Shown piece by piece: positions 10,040-13,115 of a stretch of 64,000 bases of DNA; the stretch's first letter is position 1, and the number at the start of each line of letters is the position of its first letter. This DNA comes from Tistrella mobilis (GTDB taxonomy: Bacteria; Pseudomonadota; Alphaproteobacteria; Tistrellales; Tistrellaceae), in contig NZ_CP121017.1 of the NCBI RefSeq assembly GCF_041468085.1, positions 4,499,501-4,563,500 of the forward strand. The letters run 5' to 3'. The notes under the pieces are model-generated. The model was not told the DNA's origin. It worked only from the letters and a program-made list of their open reading frames with translations, and made no database searches. Position numbers and translations under genes: made by a program.

Positions 10040-11238
10040 CAGGGGAATCGCATTTGAAAATCCCGGGTAGCGGAATGGTCAGAGATGGATTCTTTATTCG
10101 GTTCCAAGGAGGAACCGATGCCATCTCTGATCACCATCCTGCGCCAGGTGCCCGACCCGCGCACGGGTAACGCGAGACGCCATGAGCTTCTGGACCTCCT
10201 GGTGATCGCGCTGACGGCTTCGATCTGCGGCTGCGAGAGCTGCGTCGATTTTGCCGACTTCGCAGAGGACCGCGAGGAGCTCTTCCGGGAGTTTCTCAGC
10301 CTTCCCAACGGCTTGCCAAGCCATGACACGTTCTCGCGGCTGTTCCGCCTGATCGATCCCGCAGCGTTGTCGGCGTGCTTCTCACAGTTCCTCGACGATC
10401 TCGGAGCCGATGGTCCCGGCGTAATCGCCATTGATGGCAAAACGCTCCGGCGTTCGTTTGACCGGGCTGCGGGTAAGAGCGCGCTGCACGTGGTGAGCGC
10501 CTTTGCCGGCGAGGCCGGGCTGGTGCTCGGCCAGGCGGCGGTTCCAGAGGGCGGCAACGAGATCACCGCCGCCCGCGCCCTCCTCGCCATCATCGATCTG
10601 AAGGGCATGCTCGTCACCGCTGACGCGATCCACTGCCAGGGCGAGACGGCGCGCCTCGTGCTGGAGCGCGGCGGCGACTACCTCTTCGCGCTGAAGAAAA
10701 ACCGCCCCGCCACCCTTGCCGACGTCGAGACCTGGTTCGCCGATCCGGCGACGGCGCCGGCCGAGACGCTGCAAACCACCGACGCAGACCACGGCCGTCT
10801 GGAGATCCGTCGGCACGAGGTGGTTCATGACGTCGACTGGCTGTTCCCGGAAAAGCGGGACCCCGACCGGCCTGCCATGCCGGCGCTCGCCACCATCGCC
10901 CGGGTCGTCGCCACCGTCGAGCGGGACGGAAAGACAAGCACATCTACCCGCTATTACCTCTCCTCCGCCCGCTTGTCCGCCGCCGCCTTCGCCAAGGCCG
11001 TCCGCGGCCACTGGGCCATCGAGAACGGCCTGCACTGGGTTCTCGACACCACCTTCCGCGAGGACGAGGCCCGCGCTCGCAAGGACCACGGCCCGGAAAA
11101 CCTCGCCATCATCCGAAAACTCGCCCTCAACGTCCTCAAAACTGCCAGGCCAACCATCTCCATCCGTCGCAAGCGAAAGCGATCCGGATGGTCCGACGCA
11201 TTCGCCCGATCCGTCATCGGGCAAATGCGATAGCCCTG
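10040..11238 (+). mobile_element. ISAs1-family insertion sequence
   Basis: A complete 1199-bp element. Its ends are imperfect 17-bp inverted repeats: left CAGGGGAATCGCATTTG at 10040-10056 and right CAAATGCGATAGCCCTG at 11222-11238, matching at 15 of 17 positions. It holds one transposase gene whose TAG stop lies inside the right repeat. The 10-bp flanks (CGGACCATCC and AGTGCCGCGG) do not match, so no target-site duplication is visible; either the insertion is old or one flank has been rearranged. Its right end is 19 bp upstream of a TTGACA promoter element. Confidence 0.9.
10118..11233 (+). CDS. ISAs1-family transposase
   Basis: A 371-residue DDE transposase of the ISAs1 (H-repeat-associated) type. 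The N-terminal associated domain reads QVPDPRTGNARRHELLDLLVIAL, then NGLPSHDTFSRLFRLID. Catalytic residues are visible in VIAIDGKTLRRS (first Asp), VTADAIHCQ (second Asp) and HWAIENGLHWVLDTTFREDEAR (Glu). The ATG at 10118 has a strong AAGGAGG about 6 bases upstream. Length is normal for the family and the frame is unbroken, so the enzyme may be active. Confidence 0.95.
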   Translation: MPSLITILRQVPDPRTGNARRHELLDLLVIALTASICGCESCVDFADFAEDREELFREFLSLPNGLPSHDTFSRLFRLIDPAALSACFSQFLDDLGADGPGVIAIDGKTLRRSFDRAAGKSALHVVSAFAGEAGLVLGQAAVPEGGNEITAARALLAIIDLKGMLVTADAIHCQGETARLVLERGGDYLFALKKNRPATLADVETWFADPATAPAETLQTTDADHGRLEIRRHEVVHDVDWLFPEKRDPDRPAMPALATIARVVATVERDGKTSTSTRYYLSSARLSAAAFAKAVRGHWAIENGLHWVLDTTFREDEARARKDHGPENLAIIRKLALNVLKTARPTISIRRKRKRSGWSDAFARSVIGQMR

Positions 11239-11257
11239 AGTGCCGCGGCCGCGGGGC

Positions 11258-11285
11258 TTGACAGCCCGACACATCGGTATACCAT
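11258..11285 (+). promoter_or_regulatory. Promoter of the leader-peptide/ACT transcript
   Basis: A perfect TTGACA at 11258-11263 is followed 16 bp later by TACCAT at 11280-11285 (within TATACCAT). Transcription would begin at about 11291-11293, essentially on the ATG of the first leader peptide, so that peptide may be translated from a leaderless mRNA. The element lies just outside the right end of the IS. Confidence 0.6.
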
Positions 11286-11292
11286 CGCTTCC

Positions 11293-11358
11293 ATGAGCAT
11301 GATCGTATATCGCCATACGCGCAGCTTTGCGCGAATTACGGGCCCGGTCCTCTTCTGA
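11293..11358 (+). CDS. Leader peptide 1 (21 aa)
   Basis: A 21-codon reading frame that starts MSMIVYRHTR and ends ARITGPVLF, with its TGA at 11356-11358. The Ile, Val and Leu codons near the end lie on, or just before, the 5' arm of the terminator hairpin at 11343-11368, and the stop codon spans the loop. There is no obvious ribosome binding site, consistent with a leaderless start. The arrangement suggests translation-controlled attenuation. It is followed by a second, related short frame. Confidence 0.55.
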   Translation: MSMIVYRHTRSFARITGPVLF

Positions 11359-11374
11359 GAGGGCCGGGGGTTTT
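11343..11374 (+). terminator. Attenuator-like intrinsic terminator
   Basis: An 11-bp stem (CCCGGTCCTCT with AGAGGGCCGGG, one G-U pair) closes a TCTG loop and is followed by GGTTTT. The 5' arm encodes the Pro-Val-Leu end of leader peptide 1, so a ribosome stalled there would block hairpin formation. Confidence 0.65.
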
Positions 11375-11447
11375 CCCGTCTTGCGATGAGGGTTGCTGCA
11401 ACTTTACAGCGTCTGCGGCCCACCACCAGATCGATGCGTTGGTCCCG

Positions 11448-11540
11448 ATGACCTCTCCTGCCTTCGTCTCTGTCCGACATCACCGGCTCCGTCACGCCTG
11501 CCGGGCCGGTCTTCGAATTATCGGCCCGGTTCTCCGCTGA
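11448..11540 (+). CDS. Leader peptide 2 (30 aa)
   Basis: A 30-codon frame beginning MTSPAFVSVRHH and ending LRIIGPVLR, with TGA at 11538-11540. Its end repeats that of leader peptide 1 (R-I-x-G-P-V-L-x-stop) and, like it, runs into a strong hairpin with the stop codon at the loop boundary. The upstream ribosome binding site is weak. The peptides' shared end reflects about 40 bp of similar DNA around both hairpins, so the unit may be a duplication. Confidence 0.45.
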   Translation: MTSPAFVSVRHHRLRHACRAGLRIIGPVLR

Positions 11541-11548
11541 GAACCGGG
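11525..11548 (+). promoter_or_regulatory. Second leader hairpin
   Basis: A perfect 10-bp stem, CCCGGTTCTC with GAGAACCGGG, around a CGCT loop. It corresponds to the first attenuator hairpin in sequence and in position relative to the leader stop codon, but no T-run follows, so it may act as a pause or translation-linked structure rather than a terminator. Confidence 0.5.
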
Positions 11549-11684
11549 AGACCAGAGGACGATATTCGATATCCCCTGCCCGCCGGTGATGGTTGCGGCA
11601 GGCGGATGTCAGGACAGAGACCGTGACCGGAGAACGGCCCCCGACAGGTGCGGGCTCCCGGTCACCGACGACGAGGACCACGCG

Positions 11685-12005
11685 ATGTTGACCGCCCCCC
11701 TGACCACCACCGCTGCCCATACCACCCCGGCCACCGAAGCGGTGGCGCCTGCCACTGCCTGTTTTTTCGTGGTCGCCGCCGCAGAAGTCGGCACGATGTC
11801 TCGGGTGCTTGAAGTCTTCGCCCTGCGCAGCCTGCTGCCGTCGCGCTGGCACAGCCAGCGGGTCGGCGGTCGTGCGGACGAGGTTCATATCGACGTCCAA
11901 CTCGATGATGTCGTGCCGGGCGAGGCCGAAAAGCTGGCCCGCAAGCTCCGTCAGCTGGTCGAGGTCCGCCAGGTGCTGATCACCTTCAAGGCGATGGCCG
12001 ACTAA
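11685..12005 (+). CDS. IlvM-like ACT-domain protein
   Basis: A 106-residue protein. After a Thr/Ala/Pro-rich N-terminus of about 24 residues comes a single ACT-type domain: FFVVAAAEVGTMSRVLEVFALR, a beta strand EVHIDVQL, then KLARKLRQLVEVRQVLITF. The spacing and the R-V-L-x-V and L-V-x-V-x-x-V-x-I patterns resemble the small acetolactate synthase subunit IlvM more than the longer IlvN. No large subunit gene is adjacent. Given the leader with Ile/Val/Leu codons upstream, a part in branched-chain amino acid synthesis or its regulation is likely but inferred. A terminator follows at 12149. Confidence 0.7.
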   Translation: MLTAPLTTTAAHTTPATEAVAPATACFFVVAAAEVGTMSRVLEVFALRSLLPSRWHSQRVGGRADEVHIDVQLDDVVPGEAEKLARKLRQLVEVRQVLITFKAMAD

Positions 12006-12148
12006 GGCCCCCGCCATCCCCGCACCCGTCCCGACCCGCATCCGCCCCTCCGATGATGCCCCGGGACGGCGGCGGCATGTCTCCGCCTGCGATCCACGCC
12101 CCCTTCCCCCGGATCGTGCGCGCTGATCCCCATGACATGCCGGCCCCG

Positions 12149-12188
12149 AAGCCCGGCCCGCGGCGCCCCACCGCGCGGCCGGGCTTTT
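12149..12188 (+). terminator. Intrinsic terminator after the ACT gene
   Basis: AAGCCCGGCC pairs with GGCCGGGCTT, with further GC pairing inside, and is followed by a TTTT run. It closes the leader/ACT transcript and sits about 20 bp beyond the stop of the convergent gluQRS gene. Confidence 0.75.
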
Positions 12189-12206
12189 CGCGTCCGGCAG
12201 CCGGGA

Positions 12207-13115
12207 TCAACCGGGCCGCGCCAGCCCCAGCCGCCGGCGGATCTCCGTCGGCGTGATCCCCGCCTCACGCAGATCGGCCAGCCGCACGCCGGGCGTGCGC
12301 TTCGCCAGCCGGCGCCCCTGATCGTCGGTCAGCAGGTGGTGATGCCGCCAGACGGGCACCGGCCAGCCCATCAGCGCCTGAAGCAGCCGGTGGAGATGGG
12401 TCGCCGCCTCAAGGTCACGGCCGCGGATGATGTGGGTGATGCCCTGCAAGGCATCGTCATGCGTGACTGCCAGGTGATAACTGGCCGGCACGTCCTTGCG
12501 CGCCAGCACGACATCGCCATGAATGGCGGGCGACGCCCGCACCGACCCCGCATCCATGTCCGTCCAGGTGAGGTCGGCAGCGTCCTGCCCCAGGGCGGCC
12601 AGCGCTGCCGCCATGTCCAACCTGAGCGCGTGGGGGTGCCCGTCCGCCAGCCTTGCCGCGCGCACGGCAGGTGCGAGCCTGCGGCAGGTGCCGGGATAGA
12701 GTGGACCGTCGGGTCCCGCAGGCGGCGGGCCGTGTGGTGCCGAGGCACTGGCCGCAATCTCGGCCTCGATCTCCGACCGGGTGCAGAAGCAGGGATAGAC
12801 CAGATCCCGTGCCGTCAGCTCGTCCAGGACGTTGCGATAGGCGTCGAAGTGCTCCGATTGCCGGCGTACCTCGCCATCCCAGCCCAACCCCAACCAATCC
12901 AGGTCCCGGAAGATCGCGTCGACGAATTCAGGGCGGCACCGGGTGATGTCGATGTCTTCGATCCGCAAGACGAAACGCCCGCCATGCGCCCGGGCGTAAT
13001 CATAAGACAGGATCGCAGAAAGTGCGTGGCCCAGATGCAACAGCCCCGTCGGGCTCGGCGCGAAGCGGGTGACCGGCATCAGGGCCGGAGGCACGGGATC
13101 GATCGTCTGGCTCAT
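12207..13115 (-). CDS. gluQ: Glutamyl-Q tRNA(Asp) synthetase
   Basis: A 302-residue truncated GluRS paralogue that attaches glutamate to queuosine in tRNA-Asp. It has TRFAPSPTGLLHLGHA with the HLGH form of the HIGH motif, LRIEDID, the zinc-site region CFCTRSEIEAE with a later YPGTCRR, IRGRDLEAATHLHRLLQ, and RLAKRTPG as the KMSKS-like loop. There is no anticodon-binding domain, as expected. I start at the ATG at 13115, just ahead of the conserved core. The gene is monocistronic here and converges on the ACT gene. Confidence 0.92.
   Translation of the reverse strand: MSQTIDPVPPALMPVTRFAPSPTGLLHLGHALSAILSYDYARAHGGRFVLRIEDIDITRCRPEFVDAIFRDLDWLGLGWDGEVRRQSEHFDAYRNVLDELTARDLVYPCFCTRSEIEAEIAASASAPHGPPPAGPDGPLYPGTCRRLAPAVRAARLADGHPHALRLDMAAALAALGQDAADLTWTDMDAGSVRASPAIHGDVVLARKDVPASYHLAVTHDDALQGITHIIRGRDLEAATHLHRLLQALMGWPVPVWRHHHLLTDDQGRRLAKRTPGVRLADLREAGITPTEIRRRLGLARPG

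Follow-up and report, generated by a model that had tools for sequence, protein, structure and literature searches.

Textbook enterobacterial ilv and leu attenuators combine runs of Ile, Val and Leu codons with a terminator/antiterminator pair. The nearest known mechanism to the one considered here is the LEU element upstream of leuA in Actinobacteria, in which, according to the description in PMC1262725, the run of Leu codons itself pairs (base of a pseudoknot or alternative hairpin). The trpL/rnTrpL leader peptide of Sinorhizobium meliloti is described as the product of a leaderless mRNA that begins with the peptide's AUG (PMC10117765). For Caulobacter, a figure legend in Schrader et al. 2014 (PMC4117421), where CDSs were mapped by ribosome profiling, names an 'ileS leader CDS (CCNA_03934)', and the same paper describes the ilvIH leader CDS as transcription attenuation. 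The passages of that paper dealing with the ileS leader CDS present no isoleucine mechanism, hairpin or ACT gene. Within the parts of the literature that our search reached, we found no account of the element described below beyond this named CDS.

Here we analyse a 64,000-nt stretch of the Tistrella mobilis genome (the window), which contains what is likely an isoleucine-responsive, ribosome-mediated attenuator present in two copies in series.

The tandem leader locus of Tistrella

An ISAs1 transposase gene (10085-11233) and a small gene (11685-12005) flank two short leader frames; the promoter, the frames, the element copies and the small gene are all on the plus strand. A sigma-70-like promoter, TTGACA-N16-TACCAT (11258-11285), matches the consensus at 10 of 12 positions; shuffled sequence has 0.1 such sites on average. 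The promoter has the same spacing in two other Tistrella genomes, G001 and G002. The ATG of leader 1 follows the end of the -10 hexamer (TACCAT) by 7 nt. The transposase gene ends about 25 nt 5' of the -35 of this promoter; since the promoter has a different upstream sequence in one other Tistrella genome (L001), an insertion adjoining the leader promoter is likely.

Leader peptide 1, MSMIVYRHTRSFARITGPVLF followed by a stop (11293-11358), is read from the sequence, is found in three Tistrella genomes and has the frame conservation of the family. It leads into the first copy of the element (11330-11385), which is delimited by the predicted fold and by a match at 11326-11386 to R1, a covariance model built from relatives. 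In this copy CGA-AUU stands at 11332, the inner hairpin P2 occupies 11343-11368, with arms at 11343-11353 and 11358-11368, and an outer pairing joins 11330-11342 with 11375-11385. Between the two leaders lies another small frame, 'ORF-b' (MRVAATLQRLRPTTRSMRWSR and a stop, 11386-11451), which is open and of equal length in three Tistrella genomes; its TGA overlaps the ATG of leader 2, and coupling through this overlap is possible. Leader peptide 2, MTSPAFVSVRHHRLRHACRAGLRIIGPVLR and a stop (11448-11540), is read from the sequence, and in G001 and G002 it shows an in-frame length difference of 18 nt that keeps the reading frame. The second copy of the element (11513-11569, from the fold and an R1 match at 11508-11566) has CGA-AUU at 11514, P2 at 11525-11548 (arms 11525-11534 and 11539-11548) and an outer pairing of 11513-11523 with 11560-11569. 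This last pairing is broken in G001 and G002 by ATGCG in place of ATTCG.

Both leaders end in R-I-x-G-P-V-L-x-stop; their last sense codons form the hairpin 5' arm, and the stop codon of each falls at the loop of the predicted fold. The tandem frames with matching ends and loop stops, which the first-pass annotation had pointed out, are borne out by the sequence, and R1 finds both copies, with 47.6 bits (E 1.2e-10) and 22.1 bits (E 0.0023), the E-values being rough. The tandem is common to the three Tistrella genomes, that of the window (G000), G001 and G002. The energies of the two folds are only modestly better than those of shuffles (z -1.95 and -2.53). Neither the interval 11000-12300 of the window nor 12 other loci match any Rfam family at gathering score, T-box families included. 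Below threshold, a truncated RNase P model matches minus-strand sequence overlapping hairpin 1 with 14.9 bits, against a gathering score of 60; the 12 loci yield one chance-level match outside the element.

The gene at 11685-12005 encodes a stand-alone protein of 106 aa, which its homologs, the predicted structure and Foldseek identify as an ACT-domain protein. The AlphaFold model (three sequences) is predicted to have the fold beta-alpha-beta-beta-alpha-beta, with a mean pLDDT of 78.6, and its best Foldseek match is IlvN (5ypp). The target had been annotated as an ACT protein resembling IlvM: it has the ACT fold, but in sequence the match to IlvM is weak, and the protein is not clearly IlvM. 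On sequence the assignment was rejected, there being no NCBIfam or Pfam family match at 1e-3 and little similarity to IlvM; only 1-2 of 11 ACT members matched ACT or AHAS families, with a best E of 0.011-0.093. The two marks of an IlvM/IlvN-type AHAS small subunit, a curated family match and an adjoining AHAS large subunit, were both absent here, and a motif scan for the ilvI/B pattern, in itself not sensitive, found it in none of 89 ACT-locus flanks.

Homologs of the ACT protein were found in 10 of 59 genomes, its own counted. A profile search matched 162 of 385 genomes of the class at 1e-3, with a weak tail, mostly frames of about 170-220 aa, that probably represents the canonical AHAS small subunit. 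Probably canonical small subunits, too, are the ACT proteins of G345 and G355, the two of the 89 scanned ACT loci with ilvC downstream. The gene right after ACT is ileS in G231, G128 and G129 and ilvA in G041; of the 85 next-gene candidates located by script, 51 were scanned with Pfam, which found DUF4743 in 23, NUDIX in 15 and a LeuA domain in 2. Within the early ACT codons of the window (11739-11758) there is a terminator-like hairpin followed by TGTTTTTTC, a T-run that is broken in G001.

Conservation and distribution of the leader element

The leader was compared across 89 ACT loci, all those listed with E up to 3.3e-7 in the class profile search. The motif CGAATTA..G.CCCGGT is present at 12 or more of 14 positions within 300 nt upstream in 67 of these, and the other 22 were dropped; 59 of the 67 leaders entered alignment A2, and alignment A3 comprises 37 of the 38 leaders with a 13-nt hairpin interior. 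ATGs within 60 nt upstream of CGA-ATT are distributed over the three frames as 91/9/6, the nearest upstream ATG shares the CGA-ATT frame in 59 leaders, and the interval from -24 to +18 contains a stop in 0, 15 and 23 loci for the three frames, respectively. The same pattern recurs in a set of 29 ileS leaders (ATGs 44/3/3, stops 0/9/9). These frame statistics, which in the ACT leaders are not built in by the motif selection, indicate that the leader frame is translated into a short peptide in both gene sets, as had been supposed for the window. The absence of a loop stop in many relatives had first raised the suspicion of a structured RNA without a leader frame, which the frame statistics overturned.

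The first codon is CGA in 65 of the 67 leaders, and the second is ATT in 64, GTT in 2 and CTT in 1; this constancy is partly built in, because the loci were picked using the motif. Among the encoded residues R, I and P are almost constant, and positions 3-4 vary. Over 37 gapless sequences, 96.5% of the cells of the inner hairpin are paired and 8 of its 10 pairs vary on both sides; the outer helix P1, with 56% of cells paired, is kept only as weak. The alignment of relatives that the first-pass annotation had proposed as a check thus speaks in its favour, with a covarying hairpin and a leader frame conserved over 67 ACT leaders. Its placement of the stop codon at the loop fits both window leaders and the 29 of 67 ACT leaders whose stop falls between +18 and +36, in the hairpin loop or close to it, but not the other 38, which run on; 37 of these end 11-56 nt beyond the ACT start. 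The ACT start itself lies at +70 to +85 from CGA in 54 of the 67 loci. For ACT and ileS genes alike, start codons follow from a rule applied by script, which probably misplaced a few (e.g. G031, G161b).

Several leaders depart from the common form. L028 and L045 (G031, G161) each have two consecutive ACT genes with a leader of their own, one of the two leaders in either genome carrying GTT (Val) instead of ATT. CTT (Leu) at the ATT position was seen by eye in the diverged leaders L084, L085, L095 and L076 (G122, G225, G310, G280), which fall under the motif threshold. G057 has two nearly identical leaders, MAMSLRMVGRISAPVL and MALSLRMVGRISAPVL (L030 and L136), one before the ACT gene and the other before a frame preceding ileS.

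Promoter-like hexamers were scored in those non-redundant ACT leaders, 38 in number, in which exactly one ATG is in frame within 20 codons. The distance from the -10 end to the leader ATG is 6-7 nt in 22 of them, every other offset being represented at most three times; of 19 non-redundant non-ACT leaders, 10 have a -10 at offsets 5-8 and none has one elsewhere in 0-19. With promoters often so close to the leader ATG, the leader mRNA is probably leaderless, and this extends to peptide 1 of the window, with its spacing of 7 nt, for which a leaderless start had already been proposed.

The element is not confined to ACT genes. R1 matches 118 of 385 genomes of the class at 0.01 (rough E-values). 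At least 80 of its matches are non-ACT, and 40 of these were fetched, comprising 36 of the best 38 and four weaker ones, with two Tistrella duplicates left out. The element stands upstream of ileS in 29 of the 40, at a distance of 73-227 nt in 28 and with an intervening gene in G057; one ileS was called by NCBIfam TIGR00392 (a 400-aa part, E 1.2e-116) and the rest by motif. It precedes threonine dehydratase-like genes, themselves below NCBIfam cut-offs, in 2 cases, an AAA_33 kinase in 3 (one by Pfam, two by motif), an unnamed protein in 3 (two by motif, one by eye) and, in Tistrella, a protein with an IleRS-like anticodon-binding domain in 1; two matches have no gene assignment. Isoleucine-pathway and tRNA-synthetase genes are thus among the putative targets, through the 29 ileS and 2 threonine dehydratase-like cases. 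Since ileS and threonine dehydratase-like genes share this element, we take the sensed amino acid to be isoleucine. The earlier proposal of Ile/Val/Leu sensing keeps its branched-chain codon and is narrowed to isoleucine by these contexts.

Tistrella's own ileS has no such leader. The Tistrella copy before the protein with the IleRS-like domain (L173, G000:C4:4288383-4292439, minus strand) precedes a product of 388 aa with no other Pfam match, and R1 matches of similar score also occur in G001 and G002. In three genera (L152, G000:C2:37587-41645; L137; L161) the element takes a short form, RIxxPA-stop, before an AAA_33 kinase-like protein of about 170 aa. The same short form stands before the unnamed protein, with motif FKAYD, in one genus (L150, L158, L164), and the one representative of that protein that was scanned had no match in either Pfam or NCBIfam. 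Among 398 sampled genomes of the phylum, the 25 with a match at 0.001 all belong to the same class, the out-of-class share of this sample not being given. A class-wide isoleucine regulon of Alphaproteobacteria, run by a leaderless-mRNA attenuator and with the ACT protein as a new isoleucine-sensing regulator, may be put forward only tentatively; its targets would be ileS, threonine dehydratase, the IleRS-like anticodon-domain protein, the AAA_33 kinase and the orphan ACT protein.

Proposed mechanism and its alternatives

The translated frame, the hairpin, the promoter spacing, the leader/ACT-RBS complementarity in relatives and the association with ileS all emerge from sequence comparison; we infer the stalling on isoleucine starvation, the sense in which expression responds and, for Tistrella, the precise step that is controlled. 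The transcript would begin at the leader AUG or within about 1 nt of it, making the mRNA on which the leader is translated nearly leaderless. When Ile-tRNA suffices, the ribosome would clear CGA-AUU and finish either at the loop stop of the hairpin or, as in many relatives, beyond the ACT start codon; once it had gone past, the RNA would fold and downstream expression would be low. With Ile-tRNA in short supply the ribosome would stall with its P site on CGA and its A site on AUU, and its leading edge over the CCCGG 5' arm would keep the hairpin open. The leading edge of a ribosome with AUU in the A site would lie at about +15, the end of the CCCGG arm. AUU is at +3 and the hairpin arm at +11 from CGA, and the regulatory Ile codon appears to sit where a stalled ribosome would cover the 5' arm, in agreement with the masking proposed in the first-pass annotation. 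In many relatives the stall would also break a long-range pairing between the leader and the ACT RBS, allowing ACT to be translated.

This long-range pairing was compared between cognate and swapped leader and RBS regions of 49 non-redundant loci. Pairing of the leader coding RNA is stronger with the cognate ACT RBS than with permuted ones (-22.8 against -16.2 kcal/mol, z=-13.7), a difference matched in 0 of 20,000 permutations and, on repeat (z=-13.6), in 0 of 10,000. Compared with shuffled leaders, 34 of the 49 loci are individually significant and 15 are not. The effect holds separately within short leaders (17 loci, z=-6.8) and long leaders (32 loci, z=-11.0), and also for the stretch from the leader ATG only (30 loci, z=-12.1). 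A small part of it may be compositional, because a control region farther upstream also pairs slightly better with the ACT RBS (-16.5 against -15.7, sd 0.44). In 54 loci the predicted accessibility of the ACT RBS is 0.30 for the free RNA, 0.39 with the upstream sequence shuffled and 0.45 with a stalled ribosome on CGA-AUU, and the free value is below the shuffled-upstream one in 42. Complementarity and predicted folds thus suggest that in the relatives the leader RNA would sequester the ACT RBS, and translational attenuation by isoleucine shortage is the best reading there. The corresponding pairing with the ileS RBS is weak (z=-3.1, 30 of 20,000 permutations).

Tistrella itself differs. Pairing of leader 2 with the ACT RBS is no better than in shuffles in the window (p=0.16, and 0.26-0.30 in a second test) or in G001 and G002 (p=0.81-0.97). 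Pairing of leader 1 with the start regions of leader 2, ORF-b and ACT is in no case significant in G000; with the start region of leader 2 it gives p=0.04 in G001 and 0.07 in G002. The ACT start of the window lies at +171 from CGA, and this spacing, together with the non-significant RBS pairing, marks Tistrella as a derived case. Folds of the window and its two congeners, which have no shuffle control, predict an RBS accessibility of 0.18-0.39 with the leader and 0.51-0.52 with a ribosome on leader 2.

The lack of the relatives' RBS pairing in the window would be expected if Tistrella used classical transcription attenuation, with hairpin 1, and perhaps hairpin 2, as an intrinsic terminator blocked by the stalled ribosome. 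Hairpin 1 has an 11-bp GC-rich stem followed by GGUUUU; terminator-like sites occur in 4 of 27 ileS leaders against a shuffle mean of 1.07 (maximum 5), and T-runs of at least 5 between hairpin and ACT start in 7 of 58 ACT leaders against 2.4 expected, which is some excess. The four Ts that had been read as a terminator tail are indeed there, but GG separates them from the stem, they would lie inside the internal loop closed by CGCGAAUUACGGG and CCCGUCUUGCG (11330-11342 with 11375-11385), and a terminator scan of the window called no site at hairpin 1. In the ACT set, moreover, terminator-like sites number 4 in 67 leaders against 4.2 in shuffles, and at least six Ts among the 10 nt that follow the hairpin are found in only 1 of 58 leaders. 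This reading of the Tistrella locus, where the site at hairpin 1 is ambiguous, is less probable than the preferred one and the most probable of the alternatives. As the general output of the ACT set, intrinsic termination, which the first-pass annotation had proposed for the window, was set aside on the count of terminator-like sites; the output of the relatives is better explained by sequestration of the RBS in a competing long-range structure than by termination.

The near constancy of R, I and P would also suit an arrest by the nascent peptide, in which the conserved end R-I-x-x-P-V/A, rather than the supply of Ile-tRNA, stalls the ribosome, and the Tistrella copy L173 keeps a serine by TCC where the usual codon is AGC. 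Yet the hairpin arm by itself fixes CCG-G, positions 3-4 vary, some loci have GTT or CTT for the Ile codon, and ileS and other genes of the isoleucine pathway are among the putative targets, which makes peptide arrest improbable. Still less credible, to the point of being very improbable, is a structured RNA, bound for instance by the ACT protein, in which the leader frame would be incidental: the strongly covarying hairpin and the conservation of CGAAUUA at the nucleotide level, the latter partly a result of how loci were selected, would agree with it, but in-frame ATGs are enriched and frame-0 stops absent in two gene sets, and the element precedes ileS in genomes without an ACT match at 1e-3 (e.g. 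G079, G337, G294, G197). Attenuation by a ribosome stalled for want of Ile-tRNA remains the reading we prefer.

Relation to known attenuators

The Caulobacter CDS CCNA_03934 is probably this element, likened to it by its place before ileS and not by sequence; a leader before ileS is thus already in print, since PMC4117421 names it. The isoleucine attenuator proposed here offers a testable explanation for the way in which isoleucine could be sensed at the ribosome, and isoleucyl-tRNA synthetase controlled in the absence of T-boxes, in many alphaproteobacteria. The orphan ACT proteins, a widespread family, would gain a suggested physiological signal, and leaderless mRNAs a proposed use, in which a ribosome starting at the 5' end would decide whether the start of the next gene opens.

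With the enterobacterial ilv and leu attenuators the element shares the principle that the position of a ribosome on regulatory codons would decide the fold of the RNA. It departs from the textbook design, as the first-pass annotation had anticipated, in that only one Ile codon is conserved and most copies lack a terminator-like site. The likeness to Sinorhizobium meliloti trpL lies in an alphaproteobacterial leader peptide and a leaderless mRNA, here probable; trpL, as described in PMC10117765, is a tryptophan attenuator yielding an sRNA, so that the amino acid and the RNA differ. Unlike the LEU element of PMC1262725, the present element has one CGA-AUU pair at the base of the hairpin and a leader that is probably leaderless, and it belongs to ACT and ileS genes of Alphaproteobacteria.
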